Source of the DNA: Microthyrium microscopicum
Lineage: Eukaryota; Ascomycota; Dothideomycetes; Microthyriales; Microthyriaceae
Direction: 5' to 3'
Assembly: GCA_010405405.1 (NCBI GenBank)
Contig: MU004233.1
Location: 2,637,882 to 2,701,881, forward strand
Length of the DNA stretch: 64,000 nucleotides
In this document: piece after piece, positions 20,735 to 63,744 of the stretch
How the letters are laid out: every line of letters begins with the position of its first letter
How positions within the stretch are numbered: the stretch's first letter is position 1
Position numbers and translations under genes: made by a program
Notes under the pieces: model-generated
What the model saw: the letters and a program-made list of their open reading frames with translations, nothing else
Told to the model about the DNA's origin: nothing
Database searches by the model: none

Positions 20735-22968
<2,234 letters not shown>

Positions 22969-24308
22969 GATTGCAATCGATGAGCAAGTTCAATATTAAG
23001 GTCGAGTGAGGATTGGAAGAGATGTAGAGAGCCTTGAAAGAATTATTCGATAATGAATCAAGGAGAAGAGTTGCGGTGACGAAAAAAGTCGAGCGCGGCA
23101 ACGAACTGAAGAAACAGAGTCGTCGAGGAAGGATTTGGGGTCGTAAGAGTATTATCTTCTCAGTCTAGCTGCGATAATGACAGACAGAGAAGAAGACAAA
23201 AACAAAAGACCGCTTGAAGTATTTGTGGATGAGAGGGGAGTGTGTGAGTAGAGGGTAGTGGGATGTATTGTTGTAGAAGTGTGTAGTGGAGAAGAGGAAG
23301 CAGCTTTTTTTCTTTGGCTAGAGCCTAGAGGATGTAAGATTTTCACTCCTGCTGCCAAGACATTTAGTGCGGGTCGCGCCTTCCATCACAGCGTGGGTTT
23401 TTTTTGCCTGAGCATGCTGCATCCCGACCGTCCTTGCCATTCTTGTATTCTTTGGACCAATTTTGACCAGTCGTTGAACCCCTGAGGGTTTGTAAGAGGC
23501 AAGCACAGCCCACATGTTACCAGATCTTTGAGATTTGGTATTGTTCTGGAAGCTCCGATGGATGCACCCTGAGAACGCTACTTCCATTCTAGAACTTGAC
23601 ATGATCAAACATATATCTTGTATGGTACGAGAGTTTACTTCTCATCCAAAGGTTATATCAAGGCAAAGATTTATCTATTCTTACAATTCTTTTCCATTAT
23701 TTGGTATCAATATCCAGCCCATGGCCCCGTACTAATGCCTTAGGTCCGCTTTTCTGCGTCATAACCTAACATTTACACCCAACCTTCAACACCATTAAAT
23801 CAGAAGCTGGTACACGTAGTACCACGTGTAGGATACCCTACCACTGATGACCTTGGGTTGTTAGAGTACTTGGAAAGTATTCTGACGGAGTCGACAGCTC
23901 TGCTTACCCAAAATCACCAGGCTGTATCAAAGCGAAGCCTTGACAGTTTCTTGTCGTGCGCTGTCTCGTGCATCCTGTATCCACAAACTCCATGCACTAC
24001 CAGCTCCGAGCCAATCAAGAAAACGAGAAGCAAGCATTTTTTATTCTTCCCGTGCATATCTCTGCATACTCGGGCATACCGTCTTGCAATTCGTTTATTT
24101 GTAGTGAAGCTTTATCACGTATTAGTGTATTGCACAGCCTGCGTCGTATACCATATGAGAAATCGCAAAAGCTTCGAGTCCCGAGACATAGAGTCGTCGA
24201 ACACCATATACACAATACAATACACATAGGTAGACAACCCGTACGTCATAAGAATGCAGCACCCTTTATTCAGCCATATCATATATCATACAAACACCCA
24301 AGCACACC
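22969..24308. other. Intergenic: DED1 promoter/5' UTR and cyclophilin 3' flank
   Basis: No gene supported. A perfect 7-bp inverted repeat (TACACGT, 6-nt spacer, ACGTGTA) at 23811-23830 includes the E-box CACGTG, and a second small inverted repeat (GTAGG/CCTAC) follows directly. The part next to DED1 is presumably its promoter and 5' UTR. Confidence 0.55.
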
Positions 24309-24571
24309 TTACGCATAATTCTTTCCCCTGACCCCATCACCTCGATTTCCTCGTGTCTTAACAAACACCACACAAATCGCAACAACAACCATAATGTAAA
24401 ACATCCTTGACGTCCAGCTAAGTCCAGCAGTCTCCGGTTTGGCATAAATAGGTGCGTGGCTGTCTGACTTGCCGTCTGAGCCAGCCTTGCCGTCTTTGCC
24501 GTTCGCGCCATTCGAGGAGGTGACATCTAAATTGTCTCCTTGAACCATCGGTTCTGCAGTACCTTCGAGGC
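24309..24571 (-). CDS. Candidate alternative last exon of cyclophilin B (transmembrane tail)
   Basis: Minus-strand open frame that begins right after a TAAG acceptor and ends in K-N-Y-A. Joined to the GAAG/GTATTC site at 24809/24808, it continues the cyclophilin frame exactly in phase 1 (G + GC), giving ...P-A-E-G-L-E-G-T-A-E-P. It encodes a Gly/Asp/Ser-rich linker, a single hydrophobic segment (M-F-Y-I-M-V-V-V-A-I-C-V-V-F-V) and a short basic tail. The spliced product would be 289 residues. A branch-like CTGAT lies about 20 nt before the acceptor. The frame has no upstream start of its own with gene-like features, so an exon of the neighbouring gene is the best reading; a separate small gene starting at its internal Met is the alternative. 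Confidence 0.65.
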
Positions 24572-24788
24572 CTTAAAGACGCCGTAAATCAGCCAGTCCT
24601 CCTGTATATTTTTATTGAGACGAATGGGTTAAGGGGTTAGATGGGGGAAACAAGTATTACATGAACGATGCGGCGGTTTACAGGAAAAAGATTGGGAATA
24701 AAGGGCCTAGTAAATGGTTCAGGTGATCGTCAAATCTGTGTAAGAAGAAGTGTATGTGATGTGCTGTGCTAACAATGTGTGAACGTCT

Positions 24789-25615
24789 CTAGAGCTCTGC
24801 ATGAATACCTTCAGCAGGAACCTCCAACTCGCCGCTCTTTGCGATCTTGATGGTCTTCTTTGGCTTGTCACCGGGGTCCTTCTCAACGTTTTGAACCTTG
24901 TCGACAATGTCGTAGCCTTCAAGGATTTCGCCAAAGACTACGTGGCGGCCGTCGAGCCAGCTGGTGATGGCGGTTGTGATGAAGAATTGGCTGCCGTTGG
25001 TGTCTTGGCCGGAGTTTGCCATGGACATGAGACCTTTGCGGCTGTGCTTGAGCTTGAAGTTCTCGTCGGGGAACTTTGCGCCGTAGATGGATTTTCCGCC
25101 GGTGCCTAAGAGGTATTAGTTGATGGCAACTGGATGAATAAGGGGTAAAAAAGTTTACCGTCGCCTTTGGTGAAGTCGCCTCCTTGAATCATAAAGTCTT
25201 TGATGACACGGTGGAAAGTGGAGCCTTCATATCCATAGCCCTTTTCTCCTGTGGCCAAAGCACTATGTAATTATAAGTATAGGTAGAAGATGGGATGAAT
25301 GGGACGCATACCGGAAGTTTTCAGTGGTCTAATAAGCTGTTAGTTACTAGTTTTGGATGATTGAGTTGTCATATATACCTTTGGTACAGTCTTGCCATAC
25401 AAGCCAATTACGATTCTTCCCATTTTATCATCGCCATGGGTAATATCGAAAAAGACCTATGAAATCATTAGCAATGTCCTAGCATTTCATCCTGAAGGAT
25501 TTACCTTATGAGTGACCTTGGGACCTTTAGTAGCCTCAGCGGTTTGAGCTAGGTATACGAAGCAGATGGTCAAAATAAGCAAAGCCGAGACGACAATGCG
25601 CTGTAATGTCGCCAT
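24789..25615 (-). CDS. ER/secretory peptidyl-prolyl cis-trans isomerase (cyclophilin B)
   Basis: Minus-strand exons 25505-25615, 25379-25456, 25312-25328, 25159-25262 and 24789-25105; 208 residues ending in H-A-E-L, close to the fungal HDEL/HEEL ER-retention signal. Residues 1-27 are a signal peptide ([18 protein letters not shown]). The catalytic core is complete: [24 protein letters not shown] and [10 protein letters not shown]. The enzyme isomerises X-Pro bonds during folding of secretory proteins. Exon 3 is only 17 nt. The last exon contains a possible GTATTC donor (24808) that would swap the final residues for a membrane-spanning tail encoded at 24309-24571. Confidence 0.95.
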
Positions 25616-42932: not shown

Positions 42933-43020
42933 AAATTTGCTCTAACTTCGAATGTTCTTCACAGTGTAGTAGTGGGCAGCCATTAGATTTTCGCCATTTT
43001 GCGATACAGCTGCCATCAAA

Positions 43021-46000
43021 ATGGCCCCTAAAAGCCTTAAAGGGTCCTCACAGAACTCTTCCAATCAACGCTCCATATCGAGTTTCTTCACTCCTAAGCC
43101 CTCGCAGCCAAAACCACCGGCGCCACAAGATGCATCTGTGAACATGACGAACACCTTGACGATCGCTTCGATCCACAAGAAATCTACGAAACGGCAATCG
43201 GAGGATATCACCAGCGATGTCGAGAACGAACTGAGAAACAAGAAGAGAAAGACGGACGTTGTGGCAGCATCACGATTTGTCTACTCTAGCACGCCTACCG
43301 CGGCAAGAACTGGCGCCGAAGCACTAGACCTGACGGAGGAGGACGAAGAGACGAAGGAGAAGAAAATGAAGCTGCACGAGCAATTTGTTGAGAAGTTGAC
43401 ACGTCCTAGAGAGGATTGGAGACGGCAGACAACTGAACATGAGGAGGAAGAGGCGCAAGACATGGAAGAAGAGGAAGAGCCACTTCCAAAATCTAGAAAG
43501 GGGAAGAAAAACTCCCTTACACCAATGGTTCAGCAATACCTCGACGTCAAAAGACAAAATCTCGACAAAATAATCGTCTTCGAAGTGGGTTATAAATTCC
43601 AGTTTTATGGCGAGGATGCTCGAGTTGCTGCGAAAGAGCTGAATATTGTCTGCATACCGGGCGTTATGACATACGACAATGATCCACAAGGCCGTTTGGC
43701 AAGCGCATCAATTCCCGTTGGCAGACTGCCAGTTCACGTCAAGCGATTAGTAGCTGCAGGCCATAAAGTTGGTGTCGTCAAACAACTAGAAACCGCCGCC
43801 TTGAAAGCCGTAGGAGACAATCGAGGTGGTCCCTTCGTCCGCAAACTTACAAATGTCTACACGCAAGGTACATATATTGAAGATCCAGAGGCTGAAGAGG
43901 TAAGATTCCCATGTCTAAAACACATCCATCTATTTCTTCATGTAATTGATGATAACCAACGCACTCGTTGGCTTTTATCGCATCACGTGGCTTCTCTTAT
44001 ATCCAGTCCTATCCAAGACATCATGTTGAAGCCTGAAGCCTCGTATCATCTCAACGCTACAAGATATTGCGATAACAATCCATGGCTTCCGTACAACTCG
44101 GAGGCCCTTGAACCATCGCTGGCTTCTATAGGGAGATGCGATATTACGAAAGATCATTTCATCCCATTAGAATTTGCTTGCCTTCGATATGGTCGATCAT
44201 CTTACTGACGAGTCACAGGATGGCCCGGGAACTATTATCTGTTTGACCGAGACAATCTTGTCAAACAGGGTTCATGTAGGCATGGTTTCCGTGCAACCTA
44301 CTACTGGATATATCATGTACGATGACTTTGATGATGAGTTCATGCGCAGTGAATTGGAGACGAGACTTCTTCATCTCACGCCTTGTGAATACCTTATTGT
44401 TGGATCACTATCAGATGAGACCAGGAAGATAGTAAAACATCTGTCCGGAAGCTCGCGATCTGGAGTCAAGGCCCGAGTTGAAAATGTAACAAAGTCGAAA
44501 ACGATGGTGGCGGAATCATTCAGCCACGTCTCTTCCTTCTATGCAAGCAAGTTTCAGCAGTCCGAAAACGAAGAACCCAACACCGCTCGTCAATATACCC
44601 TGGATCAGATCCACCAGCTTTCAGAACAGGTTACGATGTGTCTCTCCGCAATGATCAAACATCTGACGGAATACGGATTGCAACATGTGTTTGATCTCAC
44701 CGTCAACTTCCAAAACTTCAGTACTCGAAACCACATGATGCTGAATGGCAATACCCTGAATTCCCTTGAGATTTATCATAATCAAACGGATCACGGCGCC
44801 AAGGGCAGTTTGTTTTGGCAACTTGACCGAACAAAAACACGCTTTGGCAAAAGACTTTTGCGAAAATGGATTGGAAGACCTTTACTTGATCAAGCCAGTC
44901 TAGAGGCTCGCATCAATGCAGTCCAAGAATTGAAAGATTCTGGCGGGTCGCGAGAAAATGATCGCCTTCGGCGTGTACTCAAGGCCGCATCGAAATCCGA
45001 CCTCGAGAAGATCCTCATACGTATCTACTACAAACGTGCCACTAGGAAGGAAGTGCTTTTACTCCTTCGAACCTTGCAAGCTATAGGAAATGAATTTGCT
45101 GGATCGAGCTATGAAGGGTTCAGATCTGACACCGTCAATAATGCTGGCTCCTCCATTGCACAGATCACGACATGTGTCACAGAGTTTCTTGACAGGGTTC
45201 GCTGGCGTTCAGAGAACGAGGAAGATCTATACTCTTTTTTTAGGGAAGATTTTGAATCGGAAGCAGTTACTGACCAGAAATGTCTTATTGCGGAAGTTGA
45301 GCATGATCTAGAACAGCATCGAGCCGAGGCAGCCTCAAAGCTAGGTCGACCTGTCAATTTTGTTACGATCAGCGGAATAGAGTACTTGGTTGAAGTCGAA
45401 AACTCTAAAGCCCAGCTTGGGAAGGTTCCGGCTAGTTGGTTGAAGGTGAGCGGGACTAAAAAATCTTCCGTAAGTTTTTCCGCAGATCCGTCCTCGACCC
45501 AATGTGCTTACGTTGCGCGCAATCTGCTGAACACCATTATGGCGAAATGCTATACAACGGACTAAAAAAACCAATGGCACCCTCCCATCAGAGGCGAAGG
45601 TTCCCACCATGGCTACTAAATAAGATATGATGTATTTGTCATCTTTACGAGATCTCAACGCCTACTGGGTGATCAGTCACTCGATCCCGAGCCTGGTAGA
45701 TGACGGAAACCGTTGTCGATGGAGTAAATCAGTTGTGTTTGTTTTGCCAGTCCGTTGCATAGCTTTTCGGCAGATTGGCAATTAGGATGTTCATCGGGGT
45801 GTTGAATAACACAACAGTCTATATGTCGAATCTAAACTGACAGATCCCAGCGATTTCATACCCCTGAGGTAGTCAAAAGCATCCGACGAAGAGATCAATA
45901 TAAAGAAAGTCTGGCCGAGGCTTGCGACATTGCCTTCACCCGATACCTGGAACAAATCGGAGAATACTATCGACAATTTCGCGATTGTATTTTTGGCATC

Positions 46001-59730: not shown

Positions 59731-62700
59731 ATGGCTCTCCCAAACGGCGACACCAGGGACACGACAGACCCGAACCAAACGCCAATCGAGAGTCCCCAAG
59801 TGGAAACCCCCATTGAAAAGGAGAGAGCCAGAAAGCGGGAAATCGCAAGGTCAAATATGCCCGATTGCGCGTGTCCTGCATACAACTGACCCCATTATCT
59901 GTAGTTATCTATCCGCTGCCTCTGTTCCACGCGATATAGATGGTGTTTTACGAGCCACTTCTAGCGATGCCAACATTACAGCTCTCGTACAACTTGGTGC
60001 TTTCAAACTCGAGACAGATAGAGCTTTCCTCTCCCTGCTGGATGGTCGCAATCAATACATTGTGACCGAGGCTACTCGAAATCACTCAATTCGCAAAGCC
60101 GATGAGTCCGTTTTCTTGGGACTTTCAAAGCTGAACATATCATATGGTGTTTGTCCTAGGTACCTGGCGACTCATGCGCTTTCTGAATACGACTAATGAG
60201 CTTCTAGGACGATAGATTACTTTACTGATAGTAGTGGAGAGATGGTTATGGAAACCCCCAATGTTATTGCTGATAAACGACGATACATTATCAACGATTT
60301 TCGGGCGGACCCTCATTATAAGACGAGGCCATACGTCACTGGTTTTCCTTACATGGTTTCATATGCTGAAGTGCCATTAGTTTCTCCTCTGGGCTATGTC
60401 TTGGGATCTTACTGTGTAGTTGACGACAAACTAAGAGAATTCGATACTGAAGAATGCATCGGGATATTGGATGAGGTTGCTGATGCTATCATGACACATC
60501 TGGACCTTATCAGGCTCAAACAGAACAGAACTCGAGCGGAAACGTTAATCAAGGGTCTGAGTGAATTTATGGCAAGAGAAGCTCCAGTTCCTATCGGTCG
60601 GGATTTGTCTATTGCCAGCACGATTAGCGAACAGCGCATGACAGCCACAAGGATTGACAGCTCATTGGAGCAGATCAAGGAGCAGGAATCGTCAGAGACC
60701 CTTGAACTGGTTGAGCCGGTCTACCGTCCGCAGATAGCTTCATATCCAAGCACCTCTGGCCAGTCCCATGGCACTGTCTCGGGATCAGATGATCATACAA
60801 TGTTATCATCAAACACGGACATCATCGATACGCCCCCATCGACGCCACCGGATCGCGCAAACCCATTTGAAAGCATCGGCCTTTCTTCAACCACGAGCGA
60901 TGGCCAGTACGACGAAAACGCGCCCTTAGCCGTTGAACCTGATCCGGCTGAAGCTAGCCATGAATCAACGATCTCCTCAGATATCCGTGCTACGTTTGCG
61001 CGCGCAGCCAAAACTATCCGAGATGCGATGGATATGTCTGGGATTCTTTTCTTGGACGCTGCACCAACTGGCTTTGGTCTACACTTAACACAAAGTTCAC
61101 CTGAAGAGCAAGAAGACCAATGGCAAAGTATGCCTGTAGATGATATATCAACCCCAGACATGGCCAACAATGCGTGCGACATAATCGCTGGTAGTTACGA
61201 AACACCTCTGATGCCCGAAAAGCATCTCCCCGAGGTTCTTTTACAAAGGTTCTTACGAAGATATCCCCGTGGACATGTCTTCTCCGCTGATGAATTTGGT
61301 CCCATCGATTGTGATTATGGCCCGGGTGCTATGCCTAAAACTCTAAAACAGCATCGTCGACGCAGCTCCCGATCTCAACACGACGTCGAAGAATTGTTCG
61401 CATTTTTGCCCAATGCTCGATACATCATTTTTCTTCCTTTGTGGCATTTTCAGCGAGAAACCTGGTTCGGTGCCACCCTGGGCTGGACGACAAGCGAATT
61501 GGCACCTATCGACGTTGACAGTTTGAGCCTTCTGATGGCTTTCGGCAATTCGATCATGGCGGAGGTATCTCGTTTTGAAGCTCTAGCCATTAGTAGGGCG
61601 AAATCAGACTTCATCTCGTCAATCAGCCATGAGCTACGAAGCCCGTTACATGGTATACTAGCAAGCGGAGAGCTTCTGCGAGAAGCCGTGGACGATCCTG
61701 CTCTTATCTCAAATCTGGACATGATCGACAGTTGCGGCCGCACCCTTCTGGATACCTTCAACAATCTGCTGGATTACGCAAAAATAAACAACGTTTCCCA
61801 ATCCGAAGCCAAGGATCAAGGTGTTGACTCCGGCTCACAAAGTCCCTCCACCTCCAAGTCAGCCAACAAACTACACGATCTGAGTTATTTAGTCCAAGAA
61901 GTAGTAGATGGCGTGCATCTTGGATTTATCAAGACCATCTTCCAAAATACCTCTGATAACGAAAGCATGTTCAGCACTAGTCAACCAGAATATGATGAAC
62001 GTGGCGAACATACACCTGACGAAACAGTTCTCGTTACTGTAAACATTGAAGACAGACCAACTTGGATATCAAGGCTCGATAGTGGATCCTGGAAGAGAGT
62101 TGTGATGAACATTTTTGGCAATGCGCTCAAATACACGCGGTCAGGCCACATCGAAGTTGGGCTAAAACTCGTTGAGCTGCCAAATATGGCAGGGCAACTA
62201 AAGCATCAAATTCGCTTTTCTGTTAAAGACACTGGCATTGGCATGGGCTCGGAATATATGAAATATTCTCTCTATCAGCCGTTCTGTCAAGAGAATCCTT
62301 TGTCTGTAGGAAGTGGACTAGGCCTCTCCATAGTCCAACAACTTGTTAAAAAGCTCGGCGGGACTCTACAGATCAAAAGCCAAATAGGAGTTGGCACTGC
62401 GGTCCAAGTCACAGTTCCGCTCGACAATGATATGGTCGATAGCCTCATCACCAACCCACGAGCCGCCCCAGTTGGCTCTTTATCTGACTCCAAGAAGTTT
62501 TTGAGCGGCAAGTCGATTTGCTATATATCTCCAGAGGCCTATAAGGATTTGATCAATCGCGATTTTGTAATGACAATTGATGTGAAAGACAGAGCAAAGG
62601 CAGTGTACAAAGCTCTCGCAAAGCTCGCATCCACGGGAAATGAAATGAACATTCTTCTTGTCAACGATCACATCATCCCCGATGCCGATCTCTACTTTAT

Positions 62701-63744
62701 CGATGGCCATATTCTCGGCAAGTCGACGAAAGGCAAACGTTATGTCTCCATACATGAGCACCTTCCACGACCAACTGCTCCACTACTCGTGCTATGCGGT
62801 GCGAGGGCTGGCTCGCCTCGATTGCAAAAGTCGGAACTGTTACATGGCACTACTTATTTCATACACCATCCTCTGCTTCCCAAGCGCTTCACATCTGTTC
62901 TCTTGGAGGCAACCTCGTCTGGAAAGTCCAAAGTCTTTAGTCACAGCCAAACCTCATCTCCATCTACACAGGCACCGGAAACACCGAATTCATCTCCAGA
63001 GTCCGAAACACTACCAAATATCGCCAAAGAGCCTCTCCCTGTCAGCTCCATCCGCCCATCCATTTCCGCAATTGAAAGCATCTCTCCTACCACTCGCCCA
63101 ATACCAGGTAAGACATGAACATGTCGAATACAGTTCTTGACGATCACTTCATGGATTCGTAACGCGAAAATACGAAGCGTTCCATTTAGTGATTGTTGGC
63201 TTTGATCGCGGTGAATCTATACTAACAAACTCCAGATACCTTAATTCCATCTCCTGACTGTCAACCTCTATCCGCACCCGCGCCTACCCCCAAACACCTT
63301 TTACTTGTTGACGACAACGCCATCAACCTCAAAATCCTAATGACCGTCTCCCAAAAGACGGGCAGCACATATAGCACCGCCATCAATGGCCTCGAGGCTG
63401 TGCAAGTCTACAAGGCGTCCTCGAAACGTTTTGATCTTATCTTTATGGATATCAGTATGCCTGTCATGTCCGGACTGGAAGCGACACGCGAGATACGCGC
63501 ATTCGAGCGTGATATGAAAATGCAGCCAAGCAAGATTGTAGCGCTGACGGGGCTTGGGAGTGCGAGCTCGAAGAAAGAGGCGTTTGCGAGTGGGACGAAT
63601 ATGTTCTTGACGAAGCCGATACGGTTGCAAGCGGTTAGGGATCTATTGAACGAGGGCAGTGACATTGAGACGGCTGCATCGCAAGCGTCTGGCCAAAGTT
63701 TGACGAGCACTGTGGAGGTTCGTAGTAAAAGTTACAGTGGATGA
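59731..63744 (+). CDS. Hybrid sensor histidine kinase (GAF - HisKA - HATPase - receiver)
   Basis: Exons 59731-59849, 59905-60159, 60208-63107 and 63236-63744; 1260 residues. Residues ~45-215 form a GAF-like sensor (T-A-L-V-Q-L-G-A-F-K-L-E-T-D, then Y-V-L-G-S-Y-C-V-V-D-D). A long disordered stretch follows. The kinase core has the H-box S-I-S-H-E-L-R-S-P-L-H-G with His599, the N-box around residues 759-768 (N-I-F-G-N-A-L-K-Y-T), and G-boxes D-T-G-I-G-M-G and G-S-G-L-G-L-S-I-V. The receiver has the L-V-D-D pair, Asp1163 in F-M-D-I-S-M-P and the Lys of L-T-K-P. All phosphorelay residues are present. No membrane segment, so a cytosolic sensor feeding the Ypd1 relay is likely; signal unknown. The last intron (128 nt) is longer than the others. 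Confidence 0.92.

Follow-up and report, generated by a model that had tools for sequence, protein, structure and literature searches.

In the immunoglobulin mu gene a donor site in the last coding stretch of the secreted form competes with an intronic polyadenylation signal, and when this donor is spliced the secretory tailpiece gives way to a membrane anchor. Drosophila NinaA is a membrane-spanning cyclophilin of the secretory pathway. Among fungi, intron retention or splicing in S. cerevisiae PTC7 sets the presence of a transmembrane helix (PMC3597508), and 23 secreted proteins of Magnaporthe oryzae are given as acquiring a transmembrane motif through splicing (PMC8942408). A putative transmembrane domain is noted for S. 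cerevisiae Cpr4, A. nidulans Cyp6 is placed in the ER with an isomerase domain only, and fungal cyclophilin B (CypB) orthologues are given as ER-targeted, single-domain proteins (PMC1618848). In this study we consider a CypB gene of Microthyrium microscopicum whose last intron could offer a comparable choice of ending. The window is the whole stretch of 64,000 nucleotides that was analysed, and all positions refer to it.

Structure of the CypB gene

CypB lies on the minus strand and its features are collected in Table 1. An earlier note on this DNA had described a five-exon gene with a HAEL end at 24789 and had named it cyclophilin B. The exon coordinates and translation bear out this structure, and the name is right since the product matches PF00160 (Pfam, E 5.7e-49, residues 40-194) and its best match among solved chains is 8k0f_C, a peptidyl-prolyl isomerase B (E 1e-79). 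Chains named CypA reached E 1.2e-66 or weaker among the best 60 of 161 matches, a ranking that points to cyclophilin B over A, D or E as the nearest solved kin and in which some high-ranking chains carry no letter in their name. The short product has 208 aa (22.75 kDa), is hydrophobic at its N-terminus to about residue 28 as judged by eye, and ends in GIHAEL. HAEL is thus its exact C-terminus and a candidate variant of the HDEL/KDEL-type retrieval tag; A. niger CypB also has an HDEL-like end, HEEL.

The window has a fungal look, and its genes carry short introns. Its open stretches have Pfam matches to ECM29, a DEAD-box helicase, ZW10/Dsl1, MutS and isocitrate/isopropylmalate dehydrogenase, and further to an MFS transporter, WD40, and histidine kinase and receiver domains. 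The helicase we take to be Ded1-like. The CypB gene (25615-24309) and the Ded1-like helicase (22968-20738) stand in tandem, both on the minus strand, with about 1.3 kb between the stop of the long CypB form and the helicase ATG, which was placed at 22968 by eye. HisKA and HATPase_c domains are found at 60200-63741 (+), where the open stretch that follows them (63226-63741) carries a receiver domain, and 60200-63741 is probably one hybrid histidine kinase gene. No RNA genes were found in the window by Rfam at gathering scores or by ARAGORN.

Table 1. Positions of the CypB exons and of the elements of the candidate alternative ending
Feature	Position	Strand	Match or basis
Exon 1: ATG, N-terminal hydrophobic segment and start of mature protein	25505..25615	-	
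Exon 2	25379..25456	-	
Exon 3	25312..25328	-	
Exon 4	25159..25262	-	
Exon 5, short form, including stop TAG 24791-24789	24789..25105	-	cyclophilin domain PF00160
HAEL and stop, HDEL-like ER retrieval tag of short form	24789..24803	-	sequence
Candidate donor GTATTC within Gly-Ile-His codons	24803..24808	-	
Candidate alternative last intron, 237 nt; also 3' UTR of short form	24572..24808	-	
AATAAA within intron, candidate polyadenylation signal of short form	24611..24616	-	
CTGAT, branch-point-like motif	24588..24592	-	
Candidate acceptor AG (TTTAAG)	24572..24573	-	
Alternative in-frame acceptor AG (TGCAG), 18 nt downstream of TTTAAG	24554..24555	-	
Candidate exon 6, tail of 86 residues with stop TAA	24309..24571	-	
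Best 19-residue hydrophobic segment, mean Kyte-Doolittle 2.09	24360..24416	-	
AATAAA 39 nt past last base of long stop, candidate polyadenylation signal of long form	24265..24270	-	

The candidate last intron

According to the earlier note, a GTATTC donor at 24808 could be joined exactly in frame to an acceptor 237 nt on (24572-24573), with a correctly placed branch-like CTGAT and an AATAAA-like string within the intron; the open frame behind it was said to have 86 codons, one hydrophobic segment and a basic tail. Donor and acceptor are both present, the latter as TTTAAG, and the join holds: exon 5 of the long form would end at 24809, and from acceptor 24572 the product would be 289 aa (31.2 kDa), with IHAEL swapped for 86 residues. 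CTGAT lies at 24592-24588, a suitable place, its A 17 nt ahead of the G of the acceptor AG. The string in the intron is indeed there, and it is an exact AATAAA, so that the word "like" can be dropped. The frame is there too; its best hydrophobic segment has a mean hydropathy of 2.09, and the net charge of the tail is -4 ahead of the segment and +4 behind it.

The first base of GTATTC falls in the Gly codon of GIHAEL, that is, within the last six codons, and the HDEL-like tag of the short form coincides with the donor position. As sequence motifs, the whole set for both forms is present, with an in-phase donor, an acceptor, an anchor frame and two AATAAA. The frame is open from either acceptor, 24572 or 24554, through TAA 24311-24309, and TGCAG, which ends at 24554, is closer to the usual YAG than TTTAAG. 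Seven more AG lie in the same phase as these two, from 24563 to 24464, and the six AG nearer the CypB stop would lead to ends of just 5-28 residues. One of these six, a TACAG acceptor ending at 24602, with CTAAC from 24640 (38 nt upstream), would produce a third, 9-residue end, GGLADLRRL, followed by a stop; having neither HAEL nor anchor, this is potentially a secreted form.

The gene has four sure introns, of 48-53 nt, which all end in TAG and have the donors GTAAAT, GTATAT, GTATGC and GTAAAC, whereas the candidate intron has 237 nt and ends in AAG, or in CAG at 24554. GTATTC also departs from the donor consensus at +5, where G is usual, and at +6, where T is. By eye the candidate intron is the weakest of the gene's five, with donor and acceptor both weak in a comparison set that consists of the four sure introns only. 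Weak splice signals fit an optional intron, but they fit a stretch that is no intron equally well. A splice-site matrix was rejected, as the ab initio intron finder did not discriminate (66 GT sites against 84, 70, 83 and 99 for control dinucleotides).

The candidate tail and its relatives

Past the junction codon the tail runs for 51 residues that are polar for the most part, with much Gly, Ser, Asp and Lys, continues with the hydrophobic segment WTSRMFYIMVVVAICVVFV and ends with KTRGNRGDGVRGKNYA. Under the positive-inside rule, positive charge is expected on the cytosolic side of a membrane span, and the positive charge behind the segment agrees with this. Given a cleaved signal peptide, the charge pattern predicts a type I protein with a lumenal enzyme and a cytosolic basic tail. 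Of the three sense frames that of exon 6 is the most hydrophobic, at 2.09, the other two reaching 1.15 and 1.01. As a caution, the +1 frame on the same DNA also has 86 open codons (24526-24266) and is mildly hydrophobic (1.15). A Pfam scan of the tail with E allowed up to 1 found no match, which for a protein this short speaks neither way.

Against viral contigs, a collection not meant for fungi, the tail gave 61 stretches and a 52-aa C-terminal piece 16, with no relatives in either case; the 208-aa protein gave five stretches, two of which are cyclophilins, though distant ones (37 and 40% identity). The genome contigs, also a collection not meant for fungi and with no fungal match, returned 213 stretches for the 52-aa piece, at 10 loci (37-56% identity) that are all bacterial by title; the translations of two of these loci, L003 and L004, were inspected and are cyclophilins without a comparable tail. 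Plasmids yielded 81 records for the 208-aa protein, and the best 20 of the 81 are bacterial except for one archaeon.

Published figures for two Sordariomycetes are pertinent to the length of CypB. Q7S7Z6 of N. crassa and Q4I5R9 of F. graminearum (G. zeae) are both listed at 22.6 kDa, the first with a flag for manual re-annotation and the second without one (PMC1618848), and in 2006 the author of that paper evidently favoured the short N. crassa form. In Table 1 of another paper the coverage is 4.56% for Q7S7Z6 and 5.65% for Q4I5R9 (PMC6189471). When coverage is inverted as an integer number of residues over record length, with lengths of 150-339 tried, the first figure is compatible only with 241, 263, 285, 307 or 329 residues and the second only with 177, 230, 248, 283, 301 or 336. 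Neither fits the approximately 207 residues of the 22.6-kDa forms (PMC1618848, PMC6189471). For these two fungal records, then, the inverted percent coverage in PMC6189471 clashes with the 22.6-kDa masses. All six control rows, which were picked because their lengths were known, fitted exactly. The N. crassa record presumably has 285 aa. Lengths of 285 and 283, if these are the true ones, would correspond to extensions of about 76-78 residues, near the long-minus-short difference of 81 found here, the argument yielding record lengths alone, several of which fit, and giving neither a membrane tail nor a position for the extra residues. The coverage figures thus suggest longer CypB records in the two species.

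Coding signal in the candidate tail exon

The bias of base composition by codon position in exon 6 (chi2 19.6) was reached by 15 of 5000 dinucleotide shuffles, by 11 of 1500 shuffles constrained to stay open in frame, and by none of the 348 overlapping windows, each as long as exon 6, from 23000-24300, where the maximum was 15.3. G occupies 44% of the first codon positions. No three-base periodicity was seen in the intron body (24575-24788, chi2 4.5) or in the DNA past the long stop (chi2 4.9); exon 5 of CypB, for comparison, has a chi2 of 63.

In the shuffled-flank nulls for the anatomy of the ending the donor was taken as given throughout. An acceptor with a branch motif, at least 80 residues and a hydropathy of at least 2.0 occurred together in 11 of 10,000 shuffled flanks, and in five of 10,000 when a net charge of at least +3 behind the segment was added. 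With 60 residues, a hydropathy of 1.6 and the charge rule the count was 28 of 10,000. The loose null (60 residues, 1.6 and a branch motif) gave 50 of 4000, rising to 215 of 4000 once the branch motif was no longer required and to 269 of 4000 for a 60-residue frame with no demand on hydropathy. Nulls from real sequence lay above the shuffles, at 512 and 2157 in one set and at 215, 89 and 130 in another, each of 18,086 window positions, these being taken at every seventh position with true coding sequence and this locus included. A further null at 80 residues and a hydropathy of 2.5 (reached by 0 of 4000 shuffles and at 1 of the 18,086 positions of the window) was set aside because the observed segment, at 2.09, falls short of it.

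Codon usage was rejected as support for exon 6. Its log-odds per codon is 0.066 against 0.207 for CypB, and its synonymous codon preference -0.046 against 0.079. The codon score is the best of the six frames, and 1209 of the 7160 open stretches, overlapping ones, that lie outside the training frames scored as high, some of them being real coding sequence. By this measure exon 6 is therefore inseparable from other open stretches. The test has little power, since codon bias is also slight in the training set, ten long open stretches with Pfam matches in nine of the nine scanned (42973-44205 lay outside the scan).

It could be argued that the 3' flank is open in one phase, with a hydrophobic stretch, by chance, and that the HAEL form alone exists. 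The weak splice sites and the non-discriminating codon score would be consistent with such a coincidence, and, with the loose criterion reached as often as it was in the shuffles, a scan of many genes will meet such cases. We nevertheless consider it unlikely, given that three-base periodicity is limited to exon 6, that the stricter criterion was rarely reached, that charge is asymmetric round the segment, and that CypB record lengths in two other ascomycetes misfit the short form. The tail exon is probably real; its anatomy, its periodicity and the distribution of charge speak for a coding exon by which CypB would be tethered.

Discussion

The open frame, its phase, the motifs, the hydropathy and the periodicity are properties of the DNA itself. 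We suggest, with a probability of roughly 0.6, that the gene has a composite terminal exon and that CypB is subject to an IgM-like or PTC7-like switch in which splicing is set against intronic polyadenylation. Cleavage a short way past the AATAAA of the intron (24616), or failure to remove this weak last intron, would leave the HAEL end, and retrieval would return this form to the ER lumen. Splicing from the donor at 24808 to 24572 or 24554 would instead take out the HAEL codons. The long form would then consist of the same lumenal isomerase, a flexible linker some 50 residues long, a single membrane span and, in the cytosol, a short basic tail, a type I protein without the lumenal retrieval tag. 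Splicing, the choice of polyadenylation site, the topology and any regulation of the two forms are what we infer from these properties. That there is a switch between two forms, the regulatory half of what the earlier note had claimed, is plausible.

The in-frame junction and the periodicity of exon 6 would serve equally well if exon 6 were real and the last intron were spliced in nearly all transcripts, the anchored protein then being the one that works and HAEL a remnant or a minor intron-retention form. Described fungal intron retention, moreover, mostly yields a non-functional product (PMC3597508). This is in our view distinctly improbable: the intact HDEL-like tag with its immediate stop and the intronic AATAAA suggest that the short form has been kept, the donor and acceptor are weak, and fungal CypB orthologues are given as ER-targeted and single-domain (PMC1618848). 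It is very improbable that the 79 codons from ATG 24548 (24309-24548) form a small gene in their own right, unconnected with CypB and encoding a membrane protein with one span. Such a gene would have its own ATG, an AATAAA after it and, by eye, a pyrimidine-rich stretch in the preceding 240 nt as promoters can have, but its frame is open upstream of ATG 24548 as far as an acceptor that shares the phase of CypB, and it lies just 240 nt from the CypB stop.

If CypB does alternate between a lumenal and an anchored form, the switch may tentatively be extended to the Sordariomycetes. It is conceivable, at somewhat under even odds, that it is of sufficient age to be shared with them, that the donor lies inside the retrieval-tag codons (GGT ATT C, Gly-Ile-His), and that conservation of Gly-Ile is driven by the RNA rather than by the protein. 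Each CypB transcript would then pick either lumenal retrieval or membrane anchoring, and the choice could perhaps respond to secretory load or to the state of the spliceosome or polyadenylation machinery. Filamentous fungi secrete protein on a large scale, and cyclophilin B serves folding in the ER generally; a tethered CypB, if true, would bring isomerase activity to the membrane or past the ER. A fungus would also then offer a clear example of a functional choice made at a last intron, most intron retention being thought non-functional.

The kind of switch is already known, and its use by a fungal ER cyclophilin was not found among the matches listed from the open-access literature, where titles and abstract openings contained no description of a membrane form of fungal cyclophilin B. 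The terms cyclophilin, peptidyl-prolyl and peptidylprolyl have no mention in the main text of PMC8942408, among whose 23 proteins CypB could be included, or in the main texts of further fungal splicing papers. Cyclophilin and peptidyl-prolyl are likewise without mention in the main text of PMC3597508, and the accessible part of PMC13162259 holds nothing on fungal CypB.

The proposed ending has the layout of immunoglobulin mu, a terminal donor set against an intronic polyadenylation signal. That is an animal immune gene with two membrane exons, whereas CypB is fungal, has one such exon and would lose an ER tag. In its product, the long form would resemble NinaA and Cpr4 as a secretory-pathway cyclophilin with a membrane span. 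NinaA and Cpr4, unlike the CypB candidate, are as far as is known the products of separate genes and have a fixed form, and our guess is that the likeness is one of convergence in form. Aspergillus ER cyclophilin B shares the one cyclophilin domain and has a signal peptide, for which the hydrophobic N-terminus is the candidate here, and differs in that no tail is described for it in the available part of the source (PMC1618848). PTC7, as proposed here for CypB, is a single fungal gene with two locations for its product, but there the choice is between mitochondrion and nuclear envelope, and it is the retained intron that encodes a helix near the N-terminus, whereas in CypB splicing would add a helix at the C-terminus (PMC3597508).
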